Program-made: the position numbers and the translations under genes
Part shown: positions 28,687-41,022 of the stretch, piece by piece
Layout of the letters: each line of letters opens with the position of its first letter
Position numbering within the stretch: position 1 is the stretch's first letter
NCBI RefSeq assembly: GCF_008087625.1
Contig: NZ_CP042997.1
Coordinates: 4,960,001 to 5,024,000, forward strand
Direction: 5' to 3'
DNA length: 64,000 nucleotides
Source of the DNA: Aquisphaera giovannonii
Lineage (GTDB): Bacteria > Planctomycetota > Planctomycetia > Isosphaerales > Isosphaeraceae
Notes under the pieces: generated by a model
What the model saw: the letters and a program-made list of their open reading frames with translations, nothing else
Databases searched by the model: none
Told to the model about the DNA's origin: nothing

Positions 28687-29853
28687 ATGGGCACGGTCAC
28701 CGCACGCATCGGGCTGGTCTTCGGCTACGGGCTCGGGTACTACCGGGACATCCTGCGCGGCATCCGCCTGTTCGCCGCGTCGAGGCCGGGCTGGCTCCTG
28801 ACGCCCATCGCGCCGGAGCCGGTGGCGGTCCAGTCGCTCCGCCTGCTCGAGCCGGACGGGTTCATCGCGCAGATCTTCGACCCCGAGCTGGCGCGCTCGC
28901 TCCAGGGGCTGGGCAGGCCGCTGGTGAACGTCTCGGGCGTGCTGCCGGAGCTCCGCGTGCCGCGGGTCGGGGTGGACCACGAGGCCGTGGGCCGGATGGC
29001 GGCCGAGCACCTCCTGGACCGGGGCCTCCGCCGGTTCGGGTTCCTGGGCTACCGCGACCACGCCTTCTCGCTGGGGCGGCAGGAGGGGTTCCGCCGCGTC
29101 GTCCGCGGGGCGGGCTGCGAGGTCGACGTGTACCACCAGGCCGAGACGATCCGCTGGGAGACCTCCGGCCTGTGGCGGTGGGACGAGGGGCTGGAGGCCT
29201 GGATCCGGCGGCTCGCCGGGCCGGTCGGCGTCCTCGCCAGCCACGACCTCCAGGGGCTCCAGCTCTGCGAGGCCTGCCGCCGCGCCGGCGTGCGCGTGCC
29301 GGAGGAGGCGGCCATCGTGGGGGTCGACGACGACGACCTGCTCTGCGAGCTGGCGCGCCCGCCGCTGTCCAGCGTGGGGCTGCCCGCGGAGCGCATCGGG
29401 TTCGAGGCGGCCCGGCTGCTGGATCGGCTGCTGTCGGCGCCGGCCCGCCGCGCCGTCCCCCGGCCGATCCTGCTGCCCCCCGGCGGCGTCGTGTCGCGCG
29501 GGTCCTCGGACATGCTGGCGATCGACGACCCGGTGCTCGCCGAGGCGCTGAGGTTCATCCGCGAGCAGGCCCATCGACCCCTGCCCGTGGGGGAGGTGGC
29601 CCGGGCGGCCTCGGTCTCGCGCCGCTCGCTCGAGCGGCGGTTCCGGTCGGGCCTCGGGCAGAGCGTCCTCCAGCAGATCCGCCGGGCCCGCGTCGAGCGG
29701 GCGAGGGCGCTGCTGGCCCGGACCGGGATGCCGATCGGCGAGGTGGCCCTCGCGTCCGGGTTCGGGGAGCCCAAGCAGCTCTCCACCGTCTTCCGCCAGG
29801 AGACCGGGATGACGCCGACGGCGTACCGCGGGACCGTCCGCGCCCGGGGCTGA
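28687..29853 (+). CDS. XylR-type AraC family regulator
   Basis: A 388-residue regulator. Residues 5-275 form a periplasmic-binding-protein-like (LacI/GalR) sensor domain: RIGLVFGYGLGYYRDILRGI, VGVDHEAVGRMAAEHLLDRG, FLGYRDHAFSLGRQEGF, IVGVDDDDLLCELARPPLSS. Residues 285-385 carry the double helix-turn-helix of AraC (VGEVARAASVSRRSLERRFR and IGEVALASGFGEPKQLSTVF). This arrangement is that of XylR, which binds xylose. It stands just upstream of, and in the same direction as, ten sugar-catabolism and transport genes, so its ligand is probably the sugar they use, which I infer to be apiose. The start ATG 28687 has GCTCGGGG upstream, a weak site. The 195-base spacer that follows must hold its operator. 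Confidence 0.88.
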   Translation: MGTVTARIGLVFGYGLGYYRDILRGIRLFAASRPGWLLTPIAPEPVAVQSLRLLEPDGFIAQIFDPELARSLQGLGRPLVNVSGVLPELRVPRVGVDHEAVGRMAAEHLLDRGLRRFGFLGYRDHAFSLGRQEGFRRVVRGAGCEVDVYHQAETIRWETSGLWRWDEGLEAWIRRLAGPVGVLASHDLQGLQLCEACRRAGVRVPEEAAIVGVDDDDLLCELARPPLSSVGLPAERIGFEAARLLDRLLSAPARRAVPRPILLPPGGVVSRGSSDMLAIDDPVLAEALRFIREQAHRPLPVGEVARAASVSRRSLERRFRSGLGQSVLQQIRRARVERARALLARTGMPIGEVALASGFGEPKQLSTVFRQETGMTPTAYRGTVRARG

Positions 29854-30048: not shown

Positions 30049-31104
30049 GTGAAGGCTGCGGATCGAACCCTGCGTGTCGGAATGATCGGCTGCGGCTTCT
30101 GGGCCCCGTACCAGGTCGCGGGGTGGAGGGAAGTCCCCGGCGTCGAGGTCGCGGCCCTCTGCAACCGGACGCGCCCCCGCGCCGAGGCCCTGGCCGGGCG
30201 CCTCGGCGTGCCGGCCGTGTACGACGACGCCGAGGCCATGATCGCGGGCGAGCGGCCGGACGTGGTGGACGTCGTCACGGACGTCGGGACGCATCCCCGG
30301 TTCGTGAAGCTCGCCGCGAGCCGGGGCGTGCCCGTGATCTGCCAGAAGCCCCTGGCCCCGACGCTCGAGGAGGCCGAGGGCATGGTGGCGGCCTGCCGGG
30401 AGGCCGGGGTGCCCCTGTTCGTGCACGAGAACTGGCGCTGGCAGGCGCCCATCCGCGCCTTCCGCGAGGCCCTCCGCGGCCCCGGCCTCGGGCGGGTCTT
30501 CCGCGCCCGGATCGACTTCCTCAGCGGCTTCCCGGTCTTCCGGAACCAGCCGTTCCTCCGCGAGCTCGACCAGTTCATCCTGACCGACATCGGCAGCCAC
30601 GTCCTGGACGTGGCCCGCTTCCTCTTCGGCGAGGCGTCCCGGCTCTACGCCCAGACGCAGACGGTCCACCCCGACATCCGGGGCGAGGACGTCGCCACGG
30701 TGATGATGCGGATGGCGGGGCCGGCGACGGTGCCCGGGGGGGCCACGGTCGCCTGCCAGATGGCCTACGCGGAGAACCACCTGGAGCACGACCGGTTCCC
30801 CGAGACCTACCTCTTCGCCGAGACCGAGCACGGGTCGGTCGAGCTGGGGCCCGACTACTGGGTGAGGACGACCACGGCGGACGGGACGCGATCCCGCCGC
30901 CACCCGCCGCCCCGCCACGCCTGGGCCGACCCGGCCTACGACGTGGTCCAGGCGAGCATCGTCCCCTGCTGCGCCGACCTCGCCGCCGGCCTGCGGGGTA
31001 CGTCCCCGGCCGAGACGACGGGCGAGGACAACCTCCGGACCGTCCGCCTCGTCTTCGGGGCCTACGAGTCGGCCCGGTCCGGCCGGGCGGTGTCCCTGCC
31101 ATGA
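30049..31104 (+). CDS. Gfo/Idh/MocA oxidoreductase, probable D-apiose dehydrogenase
   Basis: A 351-residue cytoplasmic NAD(P)-dependent sugar dehydrogenase. Seen: Rossmann loop VGMIGCGFWAPYQVAG, the family Lys in CQKPLAPTLEEAE (usually EKP, here QKP), and the catalytic Asp/His pair in LTDIGSHVLDVARFLFGE. The only start candidates are GTG: 30049 and 30040; I chose 30049, with GGGGCGG upstream. It is the first gene of the operon and overlaps the lactonase-like gene by ATGA. Known bacterial D-apiose dehydrogenases belong to this family and work beside D-apionate lactonase, so oxidation of apiose to apionolactone is the natural reading. The family is broad, and substrate assignment depends on the neighbours. 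Confidence 0.7.
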   Translation: MKAADRTLRVGMIGCGFWAPYQVAGWREVPGVEVAALCNRTRPRAEALAGRLGVPAVYDDAEAMIAGERPDVVDVVTDVGTHPRFVKLAASRGVPVICQKPLAPTLEEAEGMVAACREAGVPLFVHENWRWQAPIRAFREALRGPGLGRVFRARIDFLSGFPVFRNQPFLRELDQFILTDIGSHVLDVARFLFGEASRLYAQTQTVHPDIRGEDVATVMMRMAGPATVPGGATVACQMAYAENHLEHDRFPETYLFAETEHGSVELGPDYWVRTTTADGTRSRRHPPPRHAWADPAYDVVQASIVPCCADLAAGLRGTSPAETTGEDNLRTVRLVFGAYESARSGRAVSLP

Positions 31105-32939
31105 GGTCCTTCCCGGACGAACGCCCCCGAACCCTGAAGGCCGGGCCGCTGGAGGCCCTCTTCGCCGATGGTTCCCTGCGCCACGTCAAGGTCGACGGCG
31201 TCGAGGTCATCCGTCGCGTCGACATGCCGGTGCGCGACACGTCCTGGGGGACGGTGCCCGGGACGACCTCCGACGTGGCCGTGGCCGCCGCCGAGGACGG
31301 CTTCCGCCTGACCTTCGCGATGTCGCACGCCCGCGGCCCGATCGCCTTCGAGTCGGAGGGCGTGATCGAGGCGAAGGTGGCGGGGCATCCCCCCGAGGCC
31401 GTCGTCCGCTTCGAGGTGGCCGGCCGGGCGCGGGAGGCCTTCGACGCGAACCGCGTCGGGCTGTGCGTCCTGCACCCGCCCGGCACGAGCGCGGGGCGGC
31501 CCTGCGTCGTCGAGCACGCGGACGGCTCGCACGAGCCGGGGCGATTCCCGGACCACGTCGCGCCGGGCCTGCCGTTCGCCGAGGTCCGCGCCCTGTCCCA
31601 CGAGGCGGTCCCCGGCGTGCGGGTCGAGGTGCGGTTCGAGGGCGAGGTCTTCGAGACGGAGGACCAGCGCAACTGGGCCGACGGCTCGTTCAAGACCTAC
31701 GGCCCGCCGCTCTCCCGCCCGACGCCCTACGCCGTCGACCCGGGTCGGCCGATCCGCCAGGCCGTGACGGTGCACATCGAGGGGCGGCCCGGGCACGCCC
31801 CCGCCGCCGTGACCCGCCACGCCGGCCCACGCGTGCGGCTGCCCCGTCTCGGCGTCAGCGTCACGCGCTCGCTGGGCCTGCTGGACGGGGAGAAGGTCGC
31901 CCGGCTGCGCGAGCTGCGCCTGGACCACGTCCGGCTGGACCTGGAGCCCCACGCCGCCGACCTCGAGGCGAGTCTCGACGCGCTCTCCGGACTGGCGTCG
32001 GCGCTGAACGTGCCGGTCGAGTTCGGGGTCCACCTCCCCTCGGAGGATGCGGGAGTCCTCCGCCGCCTCCGCGACGCCGTCGCGCGGCGACGCCTGCGGC
32101 CCTGCCGGTGGGTCGTCCACGTGGACGGCCACCCGGTGACGCCGGACGCGGTGGTTGCGGCGGCGTGCGGGTCCCTAGGCGAGGGCTGGCCTGGCGTGGC
32201 CGTCGGGGGGGGCACGGTGGGCAATTTCGCCGAGCTGAACCGGCGACGGCCCGCGCCCGGCGTCGGCGGGCTGCTGGCCTACGCCGTCTGCCCCCAGGTC
32301 CATGCGACGGACGACCTCGCCCTGATCGAGAACCTGGAGGGCATCGCGCCGACGGTGGAGACGGCGAGGACGTTCGCGGCCGGGCGGGCCATCGCCGTCG
32401 GGCCGGTGCGCCTCCACCGCCAGCCGGACCCCTTCGCGAAGGGCGTGGGGCCGGGCGGGCCGGGGCCGGAGCCGGAGCGGCCGGACCCCCGGCAGAGCTC
32501 CCCCCTGGGCGCGGCGTGGACGCTCGGCGCGATCGCCGAGCTGGCCCGCGCGGGGGCCGATTCCGCCACGCTCTACGAGGCCGCCGGGCCGTTCGGGATC
32601 CTCGACGAGCGGGGGCCGTCCCCCGCCTGGAACGTCCTCTCCGAGCTCGGCGGCCTGGGCGGCACGCCCGCCGAGGTGTTCGCGTTCGGCAGCCCCCCCG
32701 TCGGGGCGGCGCTGCGGATCCACCCGGGCGGCGGCCCCATCGGGCTCGCGGCCAACCTGACCGGGGGGCCCTGGACGCTGCGATGGGCCCTGCCCAAGGG
32801 GGCGTACCGGGCGTGGCGATCCCGGGAGCGTTCCGTCGAGGCGGCCGATCCCGTGCGGGTCGCCGCCGGCCCGGGCGGGCTGACGCTCGACCTCGGCCCC
32901 TGGGAAATCGTCCGCCTCGATGAAGGGGGGTTCGCATGA
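31101..32939 (+). CDS. apnL: D-apionate lactonase family protein
   Basis: A 612-residue three-domain protein. Residues 1-240 form an N-terminal beta domain with RHVKVDGVEVIRRVDMPVRD and WGTVPG. The block EDQRNWADGSFKTYG at about 187-201 is, from memory of the family, diagnostic of D-apionate lactonase. Residues about 243-535 are a TIM barrel (RVRLPRLGVSVTRSLGLLDG, ENLEGIAPTVETARTF). Residues 535-612 are a small beta domain. The enzyme hydrolyses D-apionolactone, made by apiose dehydrogenase, to D-apionate. It starts at an ATGA overlap with the dehydrogenase and overlaps the next gene the same way, so the genes are translationally coupled. It is the key marker for the whole operon. Confidence 0.75.
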   Translation: MRSFPDERPRTLKAGPLEALFADGSLRHVKVDGVEVIRRVDMPVRDTSWGTVPGTTSDVAVAAAEDGFRLTFAMSHARGPIAFESEGVIEAKVAGHPPEAVVRFEVAGRAREAFDANRVGLCVLHPPGTSAGRPCVVEHADGSHEPGRFPDHVAPGLPFAEVRALSHEAVPGVRVEVRFEGEVFETEDQRNWADGSFKTYGPPLSRPTPYAVDPGRPIRQAVTVHIEGRPGHAPAAVTRHAGPRVRLPRLGVSVTRSLGLLDGEKVARLRELRLDHVRLDLEPHAADLEASLDALSGLASALNVPVEFGVHLPSEDAGVLRRLRDAVARRRLRPCRWVVHVDGHPVTPDAVVAAACGSLGEGWPGVAVGGGTVGNFAELNRRRPAPGVGGLLAYAVCPQVHATDDLALIENLEGIAPTVETARTFAAGRAIAVGPVRLHRQPDPFAKGVGPGGPGPEPERPDPRQSSPLGAAWTLGAIAELARAGADSATLYEAAGPFGILDERGPSPAWNVLSELGGLGGTPAEVFAFGSPPVGAALRIHPGGGPIGLAANLTGGPWTLRWALPKGAYRAWRSRERSVEAADPVRVAAGPGGLTLDLGPWEIVRLDEGGFA

Positions 32940-33937
32940 GCCGGGCCGTCCTCGTGACCGGCGGGGCCGGGTTCATCGGCAGCCACGTCGCGGCACAACT
33001 AGCCCGGCGGGGCGACCGCGTCGTCCTGTTCGATCAGCGGCCGCCCGCGGGCGCCGCGGAGTGGCTGCTCGGGCCCCACGCCGACCGGATCGCCTTCGTC
33101 CGGGGCGACGTCTCGGAGTGGCCCGACGTGCTGGGCGCGGTGCGGGAGCACGCGGCCGGGGCGATCGTGCACGCGGCGGCCATCGGCGACCCCGCGGCGG
33201 TCCAGCATCGCCCCCTGCTGGCGCTCCGGGTCAACGTGGAGGGGTCGCTGCACTGCCTGGAGGCGGCCCGGCTGCTCGGCCTGGGGCGGGTGGTCCTCTT
33301 CTCCAGCATCGGCGTGCTGCCGGGCATCCGGGAGGAGCCCGTCACCGCGTCCCACCCGGTGATCTGCGGCGACGAGGGCCCGGGGAGCGGCTTCTACGGG
33401 GCGAGCAAGGTGGCCGTGGAGGCGTTCGCCTACGGCTACCGCCAGGCGTTCGGCGTCGACTTCGCCGTGCTCCGCCCCTCGGCCGTCTACGGGCTGGGGA
33501 TGCAGCACCCCATCTTCATCAAGCCGATGGTGGAGGACGCCGTGGACGGGCGGCCGACCCGGTTCGCGACCGGCCGCGACTTCCCGCGGGACTACACGCA
33601 CGTCGAGGACGTCGCCGCGCTCGCCCTGCTGGCCCTCGACGCGCCGGCCGACGCCCTTCGCGATCGCGTCTTCTACGCGGCGACCGGCCGGCCGCTCCGC
33701 ACCGCCGGCGAGCTGGCGGAGGTCGTGCGGGGGCTCGTGCCCGGGGCCGACATCGAGATCGGGCCGGGCCTCTCGGACGCCGACCGGCTCGAGGTCCGCT
33801 ATCGCGGCGTCCTGGACATCTCCAACGCCCGGGAGCAGCTCGGCTACGCTCCGCGGTTCGGGCGGCTGGAGGACGGCGTGCGGCAATACGTGGACGAATA
33901 CCGACGCTACCGAGAGGCCCTTGCCGCGAGGAGCTAG
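32936..33937 (+). CDS. NAD-dependent epimerase/dehydratase family protein
   Basis: A 333-residue extended short-chain dehydrogenase. Seen: GGAGFIGSHVAAQLARRGDR (NAD site), an active-site Tyr-x3-Lys in FYGASKVAVEAFAYGYR, SSIGVLPG for the Ser, and RDYTHVEDVAALALLALD. The fold is that of UDP-sugar epimerases and L-threonate or tagaturonate-type dehydrogenases. It lies in the middle of the apiose-like operon, ATGA-overlapped with the lactonase gene and 3 bases before the SDR. The published apionate pathway has no step needing it; it may act on L-erythrulose, on a stereoisomer of the substrate, or on a different sugar. Its role is open. Cytoplasmic. Confidence 0.82.
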   Translation: MSRAVLVTGGAGFIGSHVAAQLARRGDRVVLFDQRPPAGAAEWLLGPHADRIAFVRGDVSEWPDVLGAVREHAAGAIVHAAAIGDPAAVQHRPLLALRVNVEGSLHCLEAARLLGLGRVVLFSSIGVLPGIREEPVTASHPVICGDEGPGSGFYGASKVAVEAFAYGYRQAFGVDFAVLRPSAVYGLGMQHPIFIKPMVEDAVDGRPTRFATGRDFPRDYTHVEDVAALALLALDAPADALRDRVFYAATGRPLRTAGELAEVVRGLVPGADIEIGPGLSDADRLEVRYRGVLDISNAREQLGYAPRFGRLEDGVRQYVDEYRRYREALAARS

Positions 33938-33940
33938 CGC

Positions 33941-34750
33941 GTGTCCGACTCCCTCGATCGGTACTTCAGCCTGTCGGGCAAGGTGGCCCTCGTGACCGGG
34001 GCCAGCGGCGGCATCGGCCGTGCGCTGGCGGCCGGCCTCGCCGGCGCCGGGGCGGCCGTCGCGCTGCACGGCCGGTCGGAGGGCGCCCTGGCCGAGACCG
34101 CCCTCGCCGTGGAGCGGGCCGGCGCGACGAGCCTCCGGCTCGTCGCCGACCTCTCCGACCCGGGGTCGTGCGACCGCGTCGTCGCCGCCTGCGTCGAGGG
34201 GCTGGGCCGGCTCGACGTCCTGGTCAACTGCGCGGGCATGAACCGGCGCAAGCCGATGGACGAGTTCACCGGGGAGGACTTCGACGCGATCGTCGGCGTG
34301 AACCTGCGGGCCCCGTTCCTGCTCAGCCGCGCGGCCCGCCGGGCGATGAAGGCGCAGGGCGGCGGCAAGGTCGTCCACGTGGCGTCGCTGACCAGCTCGG
34401 TCGGCCTGGCCCGCACGGCGATCTACGGCATGACGAAGGCGGCCCTCGCGCAGCTCGCGAAGACGCAGGCCGTGGAGTGGGCGGCGGACAACATCCAGGT
34501 CAACTGCCTGGCGCCCGGCTTCATCCTGACGCCGCTGACCGAGGGCCTCTGGTCCGACCCCGGGCGGATGGCGTGGCTCAAGGGCCGCGTCCCCGCGCGG
34601 CGGCCCGGGGAACCGGACGAGATGGTCGCCGCCGTGCTGCTCATGGCCGGGCCGGGCTCGTCGTACCTGACCGGCCAGATGATCACCGTGGACGGGGGCT
34701 TCCTCGCGGGCGGCTCGTGGGACGACGACGGCCCGGGGGCGGTCGAATGA
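33941..34750 (+). CDS. SDR family oxidoreductase
   Basis: A 269-residue short-chain dehydrogenase. Seen: VTGASGGIGRALAAG (cofactor), NCAGMNRRKPMDEF, Ser in ASLTSSVG, Tyr-x3-Lys in IYGMTKAALAQLA, and the C-terminal GQMITVDGGFLAGGSW. It resembles gluconate 5-dehydrogenase and related polyol or sugar-acid dehydrogenases. The start is GTG 33941, preceded by GAGGAG at 10-15 bases; no ATG fits. It overlaps the TIM-barrel gene (ATGA at 34747). A ketose or polyol step on L-erythrulose, or an alternative first oxidation, is possible. The exact substrate cannot be read. Confidence 0.85.
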   Translation: MSDSLDRYFSLSGKVALVTGASGGIGRALAAGLAGAGAAVALHGRSEGALAETALAVERAGATSLRLVADLSDPGSCDRVVAACVEGLGRLDVLVNCAGMNRRKPMDEFTGEDFDAIVGVNLRAPFLLSRAARRAMKAQGGGKVVHVASLTSSVGLARTAIYGMTKAALAQLAKTQAVEWAADNIQVNCLAPGFILTPLTEGLWSDPGRMAWLKGRVPARRPGEPDEMVAAVLLMAGPGSSYLTGQMITVDGGFLAGGSWDDDGPGAVE

Positions 34751-35559
34751 GGCTCGGGATCGGGTCGTACACGTACGGCTGGGCGGTCGGCACGGCGGCG
34801 GGGCGGCCGGAAGGCGCTCTCACCGCGCGAGACCTGCTGCGACGGGCGATTGCCCTCGGGGTCCGCGTGCTCCAGCTCTGCGACAACCTCCCCGAATCGA
34901 CCTGGGAGGCCGACGAGTTGGCCGCGCTCGGGGCCGAGGCACGCCGGGCCGGGGTCGAGGTCCAGGTCGGCACGCGGGGGAGCCAACCGGGCCACCTCCG
35001 GCGCTTCATCGCCGTCGCCCGGGCCGTGGGCTCGCCGATCCTCCGGCTCGTCATCGACGCCCCCGGCGACGAGCCGGACGCGGCCGAGGTGGTGCGCCGG
35101 CTGGACGCGGTGTCGGGGGACCTGGAGCGGGCGGGCGTGGTCCTGGCCCTCGAGAACCACGACCGCTTCCGGGCCGCCGCGCTCGCCGCCATCGTCCGGC
35201 AGGTCGGCCGGGGCTGCGTCGGGGTCTGCCTCGACACGGTCAACTCGTTCGGCGCGCTGGAGGGCCCGGAGGCGGTCGTCGAGACGCTCGGCCCCCTGGC
35301 GGTGAACCTGCACCTGAAGGACTTCGACGTGGTCCGGCTGCCGCACCTCCAGGGCTTCCTGGTCGAGGGGAGGCCGCTGGGCGGGGGGCGGCTCGACGTC
35401 CCGTGGCTCCTGGGGCGGCTCCGGGCGTTCGGGCGCGACCCCGACGCCATCCTGGAGCAGTGGACGCCGCCCGAGGGCTCGCCGGGGCGGACGATCGAGA
35501 AGGAAGCGGCCTGGGCCGAGGCGGGCGTCCGCGCCGCCCGCCGCTGGATCCATGACTGA
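34747..35559 (+). CDS. Xylose-isomerase-like TIM barrel, candidate 3-oxo-isoapionate decarboxylase
   Basis: A 270-residue sugar phosphate isomerase/epimerase-type TIM barrel. It starts MRLGIGSYTYGWAVGTAAGR. Probable metal ligands are Glu in VVLALENHDRF, Asp in VGVCLDTVNSFGALEGPE, His in AVNLHLKDFDVVRL and Glu in AILEQWTPPEG, the usual set for a divalent metal. The known enzyme OiaC, which decarboxylates 3-oxo-isoapionate to L-erythrulose, belongs to this superfamily. The next gene is ApnO-like and would make its substrate, so this assignment fits, but the superfamily also holds isomerases and epimerases. It starts inside the end of the SDR gene. No signal peptide. Confidence 0.6.
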   Translation: MRLGIGSYTYGWAVGTAAGRPEGALTARDLLRRAIALGVRVLQLCDNLPESTWEADELAALGAEARRAGVEVQVGTRGSQPGHLRRFIAVARAVGSPILRLVIDAPGDEPDAAEVVRRLDAVSGDLERAGVVLALENHDRFRAAALAAIVRQVGRGCVGVCLDTVNSFGALEGPEAVVETLGPLAVNLHLKDFDVVRLPHLQGFLVEGRPLGGGRLDVPWLLGRLRAFGRDPDAILEQWTPPEGSPGRTIEKEAAWAEAGVRAARRWIHD

Positions 35560-35583: not shown

Positions 35584-36417
35584 ATGAGGACGATCGCGAT
35601 CTGGGGGGCGGCCGGGAACATGGGGACCCGCGCCTGCAACCGGCTGAGGGAGAACCCGGAGTACGAGGTGCTCTGCGTCGAGCCGCTCGCCGCGGGCGTG
35701 GCCCGGCTGGAGGCCCGGGGGGACCGCCCCGTCCCGCCCGTCGAGGCGGCGGGCGCGGCCGACGTGATCGTCCTGGCGATCGCCGACAAGTTCATCAAGG
35801 CCGTCGCCCCGGACCTCGTGCCCCGGATGAAGCCGGGGGTGATGCTGCTGATGCTCGACCCGGCCGCCGCGTACGCCGGGATCATCCCCGAGCGGGCCGA
35901 CATCTCCGTCTTCGTCACGCACCCGACGCACCCGCCCGTGTTCAACGACGAGACCGACCCCGAGGCCCGCCGCGACTACTTCGGCGCGGGCAAGGCCAGG
36001 CAGTCGATCGTGAGCGCGCTGGTGCAGGGCCCGGAGGCCGACTACGACGTGGGCGAGGCGGTCGCGCGGACCTACTTCAGCCCGATCCTCCGCTCGCACC
36101 GGGTGACGCTCGAGCAGATGGCGATCCTCGAGCCGGCGATGTCGGAGACCTGCTCGGCCACGTTCATCGTGGCGATGCGCGAGGCGATGGAGGCCGCGAT
36201 CGCGCGCGGGGTGCCCCGCGACGCGGCCTTCGACTTCCTGATGGGCCACATCAACGTGCAGCTCGCCATCGTCTTCGAGCAGATCGACTGGAGGATGTCG
36301 GAGGGGGCCTACCACGTGATCGACCGGGCCATGAAGCGGATCTTCCGGCCGGACTGGAAGGGCGTCTTCGACCCCGAGGAGGTCAAAGCCAGCGTCCGAG
36401 GGATCTGCAACGTCTGA
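35584..36417 (+). CDS. apnO: D-apionate oxidoisomerase-like protein
   Basis: A 277-residue protein. The N-terminal Rossmann domain begins RTIAIWGAAGNMGTRACNRL. The C-terminal helical domain is of the PGDH_C type, with VFVTHPTHPPVFNDETDPEA, RSHRVTLEQMAILEPAMSET and MGHINVQLAIVFEQIDW. D-apionate oxidoisomerase (ApnO) has this two-domain form; it rearranges and oxidises D-apionate to 3-oxo-isoapionate with NAD. Relatives of unknown substrate exist, so the call leans on the lactonase two kilobases upstream. It lies 24 bases after the TIM-barrel gene and 12 bases before the binding-protein gene. The start ATG 35584 has GGGAGGGCCGG just before it. Cytoplasmic. Confidence 0.68.
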   Translation: MRTIAIWGAAGNMGTRACNRLRENPEYEVLCVEPLAAGVARLEARGDRPVPPVEAAGAADVIVLAIADKFIKAVAPDLVPRMKPGVMLLMLDPAAAYAGIIPERADISVFVTHPTHPPVFNDETDPEARRDYFGAGKARQSIVSALVQGPEADYDVGEAVARTYFSPILRSHRVTLEQMAILEPAMSETCSATFIVAMREAMEAAIARGVPRDAAFDFLMGHINVQLAIVFEQIDWRMSEGAYHVIDRAMKRIFRPDWKGVFDPEEVKASVRGICNV

Positions 36418-36429
36418 GGGGGTGGACCC

Positions 36430-37440
36430 ATGAAGCGAACCCCGCCGGGCCTCCCGGCGATCGCCCTGGCGCTGGCGTCCCTGGCGCTGCCGGCCGGCTG
36501 CGCCCGGGAGGCCGACGGCCGCCCCCTCGTGGGCGTCTCGTTCGACACGCTCCAGACCGAGTACTGGGTGGCGAGCCGCGACGCGATGGCCGCCGAGATC
36601 GAGGCCCGGGGGGCCCGGATGCTGCTGGCCGTGGCCAACAACGACGCCAACCGGCAGTTCGAGCAGGTGAACAACTTCATCGCCCGCGGCGTGGACGGCA
36701 TCATCATCGCGCCGAAGGACTCCCAGATCGTCCTGCCGATGATCAAGCTGGCCAGCCGGGCGAAGATCCCGATCGTGCTCTACAACCGCCCCCCGGCCGC
36801 CGACGTGGGGCCGTGCGTGACGGTCGTCGCCGACAACTTCCAGATCACGCGGGACACCGTCGCGTTCCTCGCCGAGAAGGCGCGGGCCATCGGCGGGAAG
36901 CACAGGGCGATGATCCTGATCGGCGACCTGGGTGACGCCAACGCGATCGGCCGCCGCGACGGCTTCGACGCGGCGATTGCAGCCTTCTCGGACGTCATCG
37001 AGGTGGTCGCGCGGGTCCCCACGGAGTGGAACCAGGAGAAGGCGCTCGCCGGCGTCACCAACGCCCTCCAGGCCCACCCCGACATCGACTTCATCTTCAG
37101 CTCGTCCGACTTCCTCTTCCCGTCCGTCGTCTCGGCGCTCCAGCAGGCCGGGAAGTACGGGAAGGCCGGGGAGCCCGGCCACGTGCTGCTGGCGGGCTTC
37201 GACGGCGACGCCACGGCGTATCGGATGCTCGCCGACGGGCACCTCGACGCCGACGGCGTGCAGGACGTGGCCTACGAATGCCGCGAGTCGGTCCGGGCCG
37301 TGTTCGACCTGGGCGCCGGGCGCGACGTCCCCCGGGTGCTCCGAGACCCCGGCTTCGTGGCGCACCAGGGGAACCTGGACGAGGCACGCCGGCGCATGTG
37401 GGGGGCGAAGACCGCCCCGGGGGAGGGGTCGAGGCGATGA
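36430..37440 (+). CDS. Sugar ABC transporter substrate-binding lipoprotein
   Basis: A 336-residue periplasmic-binding protein of the ribose/xylose type (Peripla_BP_4). The signal peptide ends in a lipobox LPAGC, so Cys24 or so anchors it in the membrane. The mature part begins VGVSFDTLQTEYWVASRDAM, then VDGIIIAPKDSQIVLPMIKL and VVADNFQITRDTV, DFIFSSSDFLFPSVVSALQQ and HVLLAGFDGDATAYRMLADG, the usual hinge and ligand strands. It should bind the sugar for the following permeases and ATPase. GGGGGTGG lies about 7 bases before ATG 36430. It overlaps the next gene by 4 bases. Ligand inferred to be apiose from the operon; not provable by sequence. Confidence 0.88.
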   Translation: MKRTPPGLPAIALALASLALPAGCAREADGRPLVGVSFDTLQTEYWVASRDAMAAEIEARGARMLLAVANNDANRQFEQVNNFIARGVDGIIIAPKDSQIVLPMIKLASRAKIPIVLYNRPPAADVGPCVTVVADNFQITRDTVAFLAEKARAIGGKHRAMILIGDLGDANAIGRRDGFDAAIAAFSDVIEVVARVPTEWNQEKALAGVTNALQAHPDIDFIFSSSDFLFPSVVSALQQAGKYGKAGEPGHVLLAGFDGDATAYRMLADGHLDADGVQDVAYECRESVRAVFDLGAGRDVPRVLRDPGFVAHQGNLDEARRRMWGAKTAPGEGSRR

Positions 37441-38486
37441 CCCGTCCCGCGACGCCGGACCGGGCGGCCACGACGGCGGGCACCCCGCCCGCGCCCCGGG
37501 CGGGGGGGGAGGCGGCCCGCGCCCTGCTCTCCGAGTACGCCCCGCTCCTGCTGGCCGCCGCCTACTTCCTCGCCGCGTCGGCGACGGTGCCGGGCCTGGG
37601 GACGCCCCGGAACCTGTCCAACCTGGTGGTCAACGTCCTGCCGCTGCTGGTCGCGGCGCTCGGGCAGACCGCGGTGCTGATCGCGGGGGGCATCGACCTC
37701 TCGATCCCCGCGGTGGTCGCCGCGTGCAGCGTGGCGTCGGCCCGGCTGATGACCGCGGCCGGCCCGGGCGGGCTGGACGTGCCCTCGCCGCAGATGGTGC
37801 CCGCGGCGGTGGCGATCGCGCTGGGGCTTGGCGCGGGGATCGGCCTGTTCAACGGCCTGGCCGTGGCGGCGCTCCGGGTGCCCCCGTTCCTGGTCACGCT
37901 CAGCACGTCCATGGTGGTGGGCGGGGCCACGCTCTGGGCCACGCACTCCCGGAACATCGCCAACCTGCCGGCCTCCTTCACCGACCTGGCCTACGGGCGG
38001 GTCGGCGGGGTGCCGCTCTTCGTCCCGCTCGTCGCCGCCCTGGCGCTGGCGATGCACCTGATGCTGGGCCGCACCCTGATCGGGCGCTGGCTGTACGCGG
38101 TCGGGCAGAACGCCCGGGCGTCGCGGGTCTCGGGCGTCCCCGTGGGCCGGGTGACCGCCTGCGCCTATGCCGTCTCGGGCCTATGCGCCGCGGTCGCGGC
38201 CCTGCTGTACACCGCCCGGCTCGAGACGGGGCTGCCCACGATGGGCCGCGAGATCCTGCTCGACGTGGTCGGCGCCGCGGTGATCGGCGGCACGAGCCTC
38301 GCCGGCGGCAAGGGGACCGTCCTGGGCACGGTCTTCGGCGCGCTCCTGCTCGCCCTCATCGACAACTCGCTGAACCTGATCGGGCTGGAGTACTACGCGA
38401 TCATGATGGCGAAGGGGCTGGTCATCCTGCTCGCGGCGTCGATCGACCTGCTGCGCGCCCGCCTCCTCGGGAGGGCCACGCCATGA
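37437..38486 (+). CDS. Sugar ABC transporter permease (RbsC type), first
   Basis: A 349-residue inner-membrane permease. After a Pro/Ala-rich cytoplasmic start there are about ten hydrophobic segments from residue 35 on (for example LLLAAAYFLAASATV, VLPLLVAALGQTAVLIAGGI, LLALIDNSLNLIG). The conserved BPD_transp_2 blocks DLSIPAVVAACSVA, FLVTLSTSMVVGGATL and VGAAVIGGTSLAGGKGTV are present. It starts at an ATGA overlap with the binding-protein gene and ends in one with the ATPase gene. With the second permease at 40024 it probably forms a heterodimer around the ATPase. Confidence 0.88.
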   Translation: MTRPATPDRAATTAGTPPAPRAGGEAARALLSEYAPLLLAAAYFLAASATVPGLGTPRNLSNLVVNVLPLLVAALGQTAVLIAGGIDLSIPAVVAACSVASARLMTAAGPGGLDVPSPQMVPAAVAIALGLGAGIGLFNGLAVAALRVPPFLVTLSTSMVVGGATLWATHSRNIANLPASFTDLAYGRVGGVPLFVPLVAALALAMHLMLGRTLIGRWLYAVGQNARASRVSGVPVGRVTACAYAVSGLCAAVAALLYTARLETGLPTMGREILLDVVGAAVIGGTSLAGGKGTVLGTVFGALLLALIDNSLNLIGLEYYAIMMAKGLVILLAASIDLLRARLLGRATP

Positions 38487-40027
38487 CCCCCGGCGAGCCG
38501 GTCGCGTCGCTCGAGTTCCGCGACGTCCGCAAGGGCTTCTCCGGCGTGCCCGTGCTCCGGGGGGTCTCGCTGGCGGTCGAGGGCGGCGAGGTCCTCGGGC
38601 TGGTCGGCGAGAACGGGGCGGGCAAGTCCACCCTGATGAACCTCCTGGGCGGCGTCTTCCCGCCCGACGGCGGCGCGATGCTCCTGGACGGCCGCGTGTA
38701 CGCCCCGGCGAGCCCCCGCGACGCCGCCCGCGCCGGGGTCGCGTTCATCCACCAGGAGCTCAACCTCTTCCCCAACCTCTCGGTCGCCGAGAACCTCCTC
38801 CTTGACGGCCTGCCGAGGCTGGGCCTCGCCGGCCTGCGGCTGCCCCTGATCGACCGCCGCGCGCTCCGGGCCCGCGTCCGGCCGCTCCTGGAGGCGGTGG
38901 GCCTGGACCTGGATCCGGACACGGCGGTCGGGGAGTTGCCGGCGGGCCGTCGCCAGCTCGTCGAGATCGCCCGGGCGCTGGGGGCCCGGGCCCGCGTGCT
39001 GATCCTCGACGAGCCGACGACCTCGCTCTCGGCCCGCGAGGCCGACCGGCTCTTCGCCCTGCTGCGGCGGCTCCGCGAGCGCGGCGTGGCGATGATCTTC
39101 ATCTCCCACAACCTGCCCGACGTCCTCGGCCTCTGCGACTCGATCGCGGTCCTCCGCGACGGGGGGCTCATCAGCCACGGCCCGGCCGCCGGGTACGACG
39201 AGGCCCGCCTCTTCCGCGAGATGGTCGGCCGGGACGCCGCCCGGCAAAGCCCCTCGCCCCGCGCCGATGCGTCCGGGCCGATCCTCCAGCTCCGGGACCT
39301 GGCCCGCCCGCCGGCGGTCCGCGGGGTCAGCCTCGACCTGCGCGGCGGCGAGGTCGTCGGCGTGGCCGGCCTCATGGGCGCCGGGCGCACGGAGCTGTTG
39401 AGGCTCGTCTTCGGCCTGGACCGCATCGAGTCCGGATCCGTCCTGCTCGACGGCAAGCCCCTGGTCCCGTCGCCCCGACGGAGCATCCGCGCCGGCCTCG
39501 CCTTCCTCACGGAGGACCGCCGCGAGGAGGGTCTGCTGATGGACTCGGCCGTGGTCCCCAACGCGACCCTGGCCGCGCTGCCGGGCTTCGCGCGCACGCC
39601 CCTCCGCCTGGTCGACCGGAGCCGGGAACGGACGGCCGCCGCGTCGGCCGCGGAGGGCGTGCGGCTCCGCGCGGCCCGGATCGAGCGGCAGCCGGTCCGC
39701 ACCCTGTCCGGCGGCAATCAGCAGAAGGTCGTCCTCGCCCGCTGGCTGCTCACCCGGCCGCGGGTCCTCCTGCTCGACGAGCCGACCCGGGGCGTCGACG
39801 TGGCGGCCAAGCAGGACATCTATCAACTGGTCCGCGAGCTCGCGGCCGGGGGCGCCGGCGTCCTGGTCGTCTCGTCGGAGATCGAGGAGCTGACGACCCT
39901 CTGCGACCGGATCGCGGTCATGGCGGCCGGGCGGCTCGTCGAGTCCCTGGGACGCCCCGAGTTCGATCGCGAGCGGATCCTCCGCGCCGCGTTCCGGGGC
40001 GAGGGCCGCGGGGAGGGAGCGAGATGA
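38483..40027 (+). CDS. Sugar ABC transporter ATP-binding protein (RbsA type)
   Basis: A 514-residue ATPase with two fused nucleotide-binding domains. First half: Walker A GENGAGKST, signature-like LPAGRRQLVEIARAL, Walker B VLILDEPTTSL. Second half: a degenerate Walker A (GLMGAGRTELLRLV), signature LSGGNQQKVVLARW, Walker B VLLLDEPTRGVD. This is the usual RbsA/XylG pattern, where only the first site is fully canonical. It powers import of the sugar bound by the lipoprotein at 36430. It overlaps the genes on both sides by four bases. Confidence 0.92.
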   Translation: MTPGEPVASLEFRDVRKGFSGVPVLRGVSLAVEGGEVLGLVGENGAGKSTLMNLLGGVFPPDGGAMLLDGRVYAPASPRDAARAGVAFIHQELNLFPNLSVAENLLLDGLPRLGLAGLRLPLIDRRALRARVRPLLEAVGLDLDPDTAVGELPAGRRQLVEIARALGARARVLILDEPTTSLSAREADRLFALLRRLRERGVAMIFISHNLPDVLGLCDSIAVLRDGGLISHGPAAGYDEARLFREMVGRDAARQSPSPRADASGPILQLRDLARPPAVRGVSLDLRGGEVVGVAGLMGAGRTELLRLVFGLDRIESGSVLLDGKPLVPSPRRSIRAGLAFLTEDRREEGLLMDSAVVPNATLAALPGFARTPLRLVDRSRERTAAASAAEGVRLRAARIERQPVRTLSGGNQQKVVLARWLLTRPRVLLLDEPTRGVDVAAKQDIYQLVRELAAGGAGVLVVSSEIEELTTLCDRIAVMAAGRLVESLGRPEFDRERILRAAFRGEGRGEGAR

Positions 40028-41022
40028 CCGCGGAACCAACCGAAGCCCTCCCGGCAACCGGCCCCCGCCCCGGGCCCTGGAGGCGGCTGGCCCGGCATGC
40101 CCCGCTGCTCCTCCTGCTCGCGGTCGTGCTGGCCTTCGGCGCCATCTCGCCCGTGTTCCGGACCCCGGCGAACGCACGGAACATCCTGGTGCAGTCGTCG
40201 GGCGTGGCGGTGGTCGCCGTGGGCATGACGATCGTGCTCATCACCGGGGGGATCGACCTGTCGGCCGGGGCGGTGATGTTCCTCTCGGCCGCGGTGGCGG
40301 GGAAGCTCGTGATCGGCGGCTGGATCCCGGGCCTGGGGCCGATCCCCGTGCCGCTGGCCGTGGCGCTGATCGTGCCCCTCGGGCTCGCCTGCGGCCTGGT
40401 GAACGCGGCGCTCGTCGCGGGCGGCCGGATCGCCCCGTTCGTGGCGACTCTGGCCACGCTCTACCTGGCGCGGGGGCTGGCGCTTCAGATCACCCAGACG
40501 CGGCCCCTCCCGCTGCCCCCCGGCTTCCTCGAGCTCGGGCGGGCCGCCGTGCTCGGACTGCCGCTGCCGGCCTGGATCCTGCTCGCGGCCGCGGCCGCCG
40601 GCCAGGCCATGCTCTCGGCCACGCCGCTCGGGCGCCAGCTCTACGCGCTCGGGCACGACCCCGACGCCGCGCGCCGGGCGGGCCTGCGGACGACCCGGCT
40701 CCTGGCGTTCGCCTACGTGATCAGCGGCCTCTGCGCGTCGCTGGGGGGACTGATCGCGGTGGCCCAGCTCGGGACGGTGTCGCCCACCTTCGGGGCCCAG
40801 CGGGAGTTCGCCGCGATCGCCGCGGCCGTGCTGGGCGGGACGAGCCTCTTCGGCGGGAGGGGCAACGTCCTCCCGGGCACGCTCGTCGGCGTGCTCCTGG
40901 TGCAGACCCTGGAGAACGGGCTGAACATCCTCAACGCCGACCCGTACTCCTACCCGGTCGTCGTGGGGGCCGTCCTCTTCGTCGCGGTCCTGCTCGACCG
41001 GCTCCGCCGGCCCCGCGACTGA
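40024..41022 (+). CDS. Sugar ABC transporter permease (RbsC type), second
   Basis: A 332-residue permease of the same family as the one at 37437, but clearly diverged from it. Hydrophobic segments begin at about residue 24 (APLLLLLAVVLAFGAISPVF). Family blocks are VVAVGMTIVLITGGIDLSAG, PFVATLATLYLARGLAL, AYVISGLCASLGGLIAVAQL and AAVLGGTSLFGGRGNVLPGT. It is the last gene of the operon and starts at ATGA inside the ATPase gene. Having two different permeases suggests a heterodimeric channel, unlike RbsABC of E. coli. It converges on the BNR-repeat gene with 46 bases between. Confidence 0.88.
   Translation: MTAEPTEALPATGPRPGPWRRLARHAPLLLLLAVVLAFGAISPVFRTPANARNILVQSSGVAVVAVGMTIVLITGGIDLSAGAVMFLSAAVAGKLVIGGWIPGLGPIPVPLAVALIVPLGLACGLVNAALVAGGRIAPFVATLATLYLARGLALQITQTRPLPLPPGFLELGRAAVLGLPLPAWILLAAAAAGQAMLSATPLGRQLYALGHDPDAARRAGLRTTRLLAFAYVISGLCASLGGLIAVAQLGTVSPTFGAQREFAAIAAAVLGGTSLFGGRGNVLPGTLVGVLLVQTLENGLNILNADPYSYPVVVGAVLFVAVLLDRLRRPRD

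Follow-up and report, generated by a model that had tools for sequence, protein, structure and literature searches.

The oxidative D-apiose pathway, including the branch that proceeds through OiaC, was described by Carter et al. (2018, Nat Chem Biol 14:696) and is considered here as it is cited in PMC6302742. In an apiose cluster of Escherichia coli ST131 and E. fergusonii that lacks apsI, two putative oxidoreductases have been hypothesised to act as a substitute, and growth on D-apiose has been shown (PMC13001218). In E. coli SE15, we found the oxidoreductases of the apiose cluster to be two adjacent short-chain dehydrogenases/reductases. We have now analysed a 64,000-nucleotide stretch of the Aquisphaera giovannonii contig NZ_CP042997.1 (positions 4,960,001 to 5,024,000; the whole stretch is referred to as the window), in which a ten-gene operon, best read from its predicted activities as an OiaC-type oxidative D-apiose operon, includes two additional genes: an extended short-chain dehydrogenase/reductase (EPI) and a classical one (SDR). 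The two genes are a rare, translationally coupled addition to the known pathway, and we tentatively suggest that they enable it to handle one further sugar acid.

The reading frame of EPI starts with ATG and encodes 333 amino acids that matched the Pfam family Epimerase (E 3e-38), with intact TGGAGFIG (residue 8) and YGASK (residue 154) motifs. The frame of SDR starts with GTG and encodes 269 amino acids that matched adh_short_C2 (E 6e-57), with intact TGASGGIG (residue 19) and YGMTK (residue 162) motifs. The GC content at third codon positions (GC3) was 0.958 for EPI and 0.985 for SDR, and since these values match those of the neighbouring genes (0.95–0.99), both are taken to be real coding sequences. 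The EPI start overlaps the stop of the ApnL-type lactonase gene by 4 bp, EPI and SDR are 3 bp apart, and the SDR stop overlaps the start of the following TIM-barrel gene by 4 bp. As the starts overlap or nearly so, EPI and SDR are expected to be co-expressed with the rest of the operon. Coordinates, Pfam matches and spacing all agreed with the original prediction, which had placed two oxidoreductases of these families tightly between the lactonase and a decarboxylase candidate.

ApnL genes were scanned for in one genome per species, 80 of 246 loci were kept, and loci from genome and plasmid searches were added; 41 loci, including a few near-identical pairs, carried both ApnL and an ApnO-like gene. 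Neither EPI and SDR nor their Aminobacter counterparts had a match in any of these 41 loci (tblastn, E 1e-8), as far as the flanks of 8–10 kb and some short contigs reach, so that a more distant copy could be missed. The earlier proposal that the two oxidoreductases are extra to the pathway was therefore upheld. Their co-occurrence with ApnL-type genes in other genomes, which the same proposal offered as a check, was nil among the loci with ApnL and ApnO. ApnL-type genes do adjoin those of relatives of SDR in Rhizobium daejeonense and Shinella.

These relatives were the two best matches of SDR among 72,556 plasmid records (43% identity), and their genes adjoin those of an ApnL-type lactonase (31–32%), a Gfo protein (33–35%) and a sugar ABC transporter. 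The phylogenetic tree joined SDR with them at 96/91, a second tree at 94/85, and in the alignment they have an NRRKP stretch in common, and their C-terminal tails are similar, with W as the last residue. No ApnO homologue was found on the R. daejeonense and Shinella replicons, whereas three control replicons do have one. The SDRs of these replicons hence follow no ApnO/OiaC route there, and their substrate is probably not L-erythrulose. A rough count (237 ApnL places versus more than 17,000 SDR places) puts the likelihood of a chance pairing at a few per cent at most. Since the two records are 86% identical and represent one evolutionary case, and since genes for short-chain dehydrogenases are common, we treat the kinship as suggestive only.

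The best models for SDR were KduD, gluconate 5-dehydrogenase and general SDR models; no NCBIfam equivalog cut-off was reached (kduD, 210 bits versus 339; gluconate 5-dehydrogenase models, 171–174 versus 369–408), and a solved gluconate dehydrogenase was second among its relatives in the PDB. A lookup of the substrate-binding arginine of gluconate 5-dehydrogenase gave nothing usable. The residue following the second β-strand is a general guide to the preference for NAD or NADP. At this position SDR has an arginine (HGRS), in contrast to the HDLS of its relatives, which suggests that the preference has shifted from NAD to NADP, and the aspartate of EPI (FDQR) suggests the use of NAD.

Because of the relatives of SDR, we favour action at the level of a sugar or sugar acid. 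SDR, likened to gluconate 5-dehydrogenase or KduD and probably NADP(H)-dependent, would oxidise or reduce a hydroxyl or keto group of a product of the ApnL-type lactonase. EPI would be an NAD(H)-linked enzyme acting on the same second substrate. With both enzymes, a sugar acid different from D-apionate could be used, or disposed of, through the operon. We infer these substrates, cofactors and reaction directions, and consider it somewhat short of an even chance that an OiaC-type apiose operon has been widened in this manner by a sugar-acid dehydrogenase and its EPI partner. An apiose operon has here taken in two dehydrogenases, one of them kin to ApnL-linked SDRs, and sugar-acid routes that involve a lactonase may therefore be put together from interchangeable modules. 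Several observations weigh against this explanation. The apparent kinship of SDR to ApnL-linked enzymes amounts to 43% identity with a single related alphaproteobacterial pair in a huge superfamily; general relatives are many in the phylum (36–47% identity), and planctomycete SDRs with 44–47% identity had no ApnL nearby among those examined. The Rhizobium record is a 256-kb plasmid, which leaves room for ApnO in another part of the genome. None of the relatives of EPI exceeds 39% identity or lies beside ApnL, and the cofactor assignments rest on the residue after the second β-strand.

EPI reached no NCBIfam cut-off in any family. It was rejected as UDP-glucose 4-epimerase (galE; 84 bits versus a cut-off of 262), as dTDP-glucose dehydratase (RmlB; 75 versus 365) and as D-erythronate dehydrogenase (DenD; 41 versus 325), and tblastn gave no match at 1e-5 between EPI and a denD gene located beside ApnL. 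After a Caballeronia protein (38.6%), its nearest relatives were proteins of Skermanella, Aminobacter, Paenarthrobacter and Paracoccus (34–37%), and no relative above 38% was found in 294 genomes of the phylum or 45 of the same family. A single-sequence structure prediction had a mean predicted local distance difference test score (pLDDT) of 42 and was not used. In four loci (L130, L131, L134 and L135), located on plasmids from several genera, an extended and a classical short-chain dehydrogenase form a conserved pair, accompanied by a dihydropyrimidinase or amidohydrolase gene and by transporter genes.

Alternatively, EPI and SDR might have entered the operon as a cassette derived from another catabolic pathway, without a role in apiose use. 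An EPI-like gene with a classical SDR immediately downstream is present in hydantoinase/amidohydrolase clusters on Skermanella, Aminobacter, Paracoccus and Paenarthrobacter plasmids, and the lack of close EPI relatives in the planctomycete genomes searched points in the same direction. However, the partner SDRs of these cassettes form a separate clade in the tree (33–38% identity to SDR), the nearest kin of SDR sit in ApnL operons, and the 4-bp overlaps, which are seamless, together with the similar GC3 suggest that function has been retained. We regard a hitchhiking cassette of this kind as rather unlikely. As the source of both genes, the hydantoinase-linked cassette was ruled out for SDR by the tree.

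The cofactor assignments would also fit a redox pair, one enzyme using NAD and the other NADP, which together catalyse the isomerisation or epimerisation of a sugar, such as the conversion of apiose to apulose via apiitol. The Escherichia apiose cluster, in which two oxidoreductases have been proposed to replace apiose isomerase (PMC13001218), provides a precedent, but the E. coli SDRs are only 28–32% identical to SDR, at which level they were rejected as orthologues, and neither of them aligns with the full length of EPI. Moreover, the operon contains the predicted genes of the complete oxidative branch and neither an FGGY kinase nor a transketolase. The closest match in the genome to the kinase of the E. 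coli cluster (42% identity) was rejected as an apulose kinase, as it is a true glycerol kinase (710 bits versus a cut-off of 590). That EPI and SDR form such a pair is improbable, but we count it as a serious alternative.

According to the original prediction, the window has no L-erythrulose kinase, and SDR or EPI could start a non-phosphorylated route for L-erythrulose in its place. The first part held and could be extended: neither Dak1 (PF02733), the dihydroxyacetone kinase (DAK)-type L-erythrulose kinase, nor a DUF1537 kinase (PF07005) was found in the whole 10.5-Mb genome. A kinase of another type is not lacking, since four FGGY kinases are encoded elsewhere in the genome: the above glycerol kinase, a xylulokinase (558 bits versus 380), a ribulokinase-like and a rhamnulokinase-like protein. 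Glycerol kinases accept dihydroxyacetone, and it is possible that a promiscuous kinase, such as the glycerol kinase or the xylulokinase, phosphorylates the ketotetrose.

The second part was not supported. Of 22 other genomes with OiaC-type (TIM-type ApnL) loci (among L014–L093), 21 likewise lack Dak1, and the operons of these genomes contain neither EPI nor SDR. As other bacteria have this pathway and this gap but neither gene, the missing kinase is no clue to the function of EPI and SDR; nor can a DAK-type kinase, with such a distribution, serve as a defining feature of the OiaC-type set. EPI and SDR do adjoin the gene of an OiaC-like protein with L-erythrulose as the expected product. Against this, the kin of SDR sit in operons without ApnO, nothing found ties either enzyme to a C4 sugar, and the known C4-acid routes need, to our knowledge, the DUF1537 kinase OtnK, a type absent from the genome. 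We find a kinase-replacing role of the two enzymes very doubtful. A broader version, in which DAK-less OiaC-type apiose users handle L-erythrulose by an undescribed step and EPI and SDR constitute a non-phosphorylated redox form of it, appears highly unlikely. The same 21 genomes show that the end of the pathway, i.e. the fate of L-erythrulose, is without an assigned enzyme in most carriers.

The genes of the operon follow each other in the order given in Table 1. Counted from the Gfo gene, there are six overlaps of 4 bp and three gaps, of 3, 24 and 12 bp; by this layout, Gfo through the last permease is one operon, with EPI and SDR seamlessly inside. In the predicted pathway, the ApsD-like Gfo would convert D-apiose to apionolactone, ApnL would hydrolyse the latter to apionate, ApnO would convert apionate to 3-oxo-isoapionate, and the TIM barrel, acting as OiaC, would yield L-erythrulose. 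The Gfo protein is 39–64% identical to Gfo proteins whose genes neighbour ApnL and ApnO elsewhere, and the ApnO-like protein is 43–49% identical to the product of a PGDH_C gene that adjoins ApnL, OiaX and OiaK in Rhizobiales and Rhodobacterales. The structures matched by the two proteins (5uhw and 5t57) are presumably those of ApsD and ApnO, although their titles do not say so. The ApnL model gave 813 bits for the ApnL of a Shinella apiose locus versus 283 here. Identity among planctomycetes was 35–43% for ApnL and 53–61% for the Gfo proteins of the same organisms, and since the ApnL family is fast-evolving, the low score may carry little weight.

The TIM barrel reached no curated NCBIfam model and no solved relative in the PDB. 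The 41 loci with ApnL and ApnO had a TIM barrel without OiaX/OiaK in 20 cases, OiaX/OiaK without a TIM barrel in 16, both in 3 and neither in 2. The TIM barrel therefore appears to stand in for the kinase and the RuBisCO-like decarboxylase (OiaK and OiaX), as expected of OiaC. A GH140 apiosidase (436-amino-acid protein) was present in 18 of 27 TIM-type loci, and the A. giovannonii genome has three strong GH140 apiosidase genes far from the operon (contig positions 711112, 1026148 and 6256780), which marks this as a class of operon for D-apiose. The enzyme names used here rest on annotation, on papers citing the original apiose pathway study, and on general knowledge of the field.

Table 1. Genes of the putative D-apiose operon and its regulator, with positions in the window
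Feature	Position	Strand	Assignment	Support
XylR-like regulator	28687..29853	+	probable operon regulator	Pfam Peripla_BP_3 (periplasmic-binding-like sensor) and HTH_18 (AraC-type helix-turn-helix); 198 bp upstream of operon
Gfo	30052..31104 (start approximate)	+	ApsD-like Gfo/Idh/MocA dehydrogenase	PDB 5uhw group, E 2.8e-74
ApnL	31101..32939	+	ApnL-type lactonase	NCBIfam NF049900, 283 bits versus 750-bit cut-off
EPI	32936..33937	+	extended SDR, epimerase/dehydratase superfamily, sub-family unassigned	PF01370; best relative 38.6%, Caballeronia plasmid
SDR	33941..34750	+	classical SDR, KduD/gluconate 5-dehydrogenase kind	PF13561; groups with SDRs of Rhizobiaceae ApnL operons
TIM barrel	34747..35559	+	OiaC-like decarboxylase candidate, xylose-isomerase-like	PF01261
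ApnO	35584..36417	+	ApnO-like D-apionate oxidoisomerase, PGDH_C domain	PF16896; PDB 5t57, E 2.8e-80
Substrate-binding protein	36430..37440	+	sugar ABC transporter	PF13407
Permease 1	37437..38486	+	sugar ABC transporter	PF02653
ATPase	38483..40027	+	sugar ABC transporter	AraG/RbsA-type
Permease 2	40024..41022	+	sugar ABC transporter	PF02653

ApnL-type lactonases were also observed in other surroundings. In planctomycetes and rhizobia, the lactonase gene adjoins those of a D-2-hydroxyacid dehydrogenase (PF02826) and an HpcH-type aldolase (L009/L027, L010, L139 and L144; partially L044), possibly representing a second lactonase pathway. In Paroceanicella (L137, 7938-10896), the lactonase gene is followed by one annotated as D-erythronate dehydrogenase.

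Compared with the OiaC branch of the oxidative D-apiose pathway, the A. giovannonii locus has the same ApsD-, ApnL- and ApnO-like genes, a TIM barrel as the OiaC candidate, a sugar ABC transporter and GH140 in the genome; it differs in the two inserted dehydrogenases, the absence of a DAK-type kinase from the genome and an ApnL score below the curated cut-off. The Escherichia cluster likewise has two adjacent genes of the short-chain dehydrogenase superfamily within an apiose cluster, but it is non-oxidative, with a kinase and transketolases, both SDRs are classical, and there is no lactonase. Judged by their sequences, the E. coli pair would be analogues of EPI and SDR at most. The plasmid cassettes of Skermanella, Aminobacter and Paracoccus share an extended SDR (34–37% identity to EPI) that immediately precedes a classical one, whereas these SDRs belong to another clade and the context is a hydantoinase (dihydropyrimidinase) with an ABC transporter. 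Finally, the R. daejeonense and Shinella operons combine an SDR belonging to the small clade of the A. giovannonii SDR with an adjoining ApnL-type lactonase, Gfo and an ABC transporter; there, the SDR gene is divergently transcribed, ApnO is missing from the replicon, EPI is absent and an aldo/keto reductase is added.

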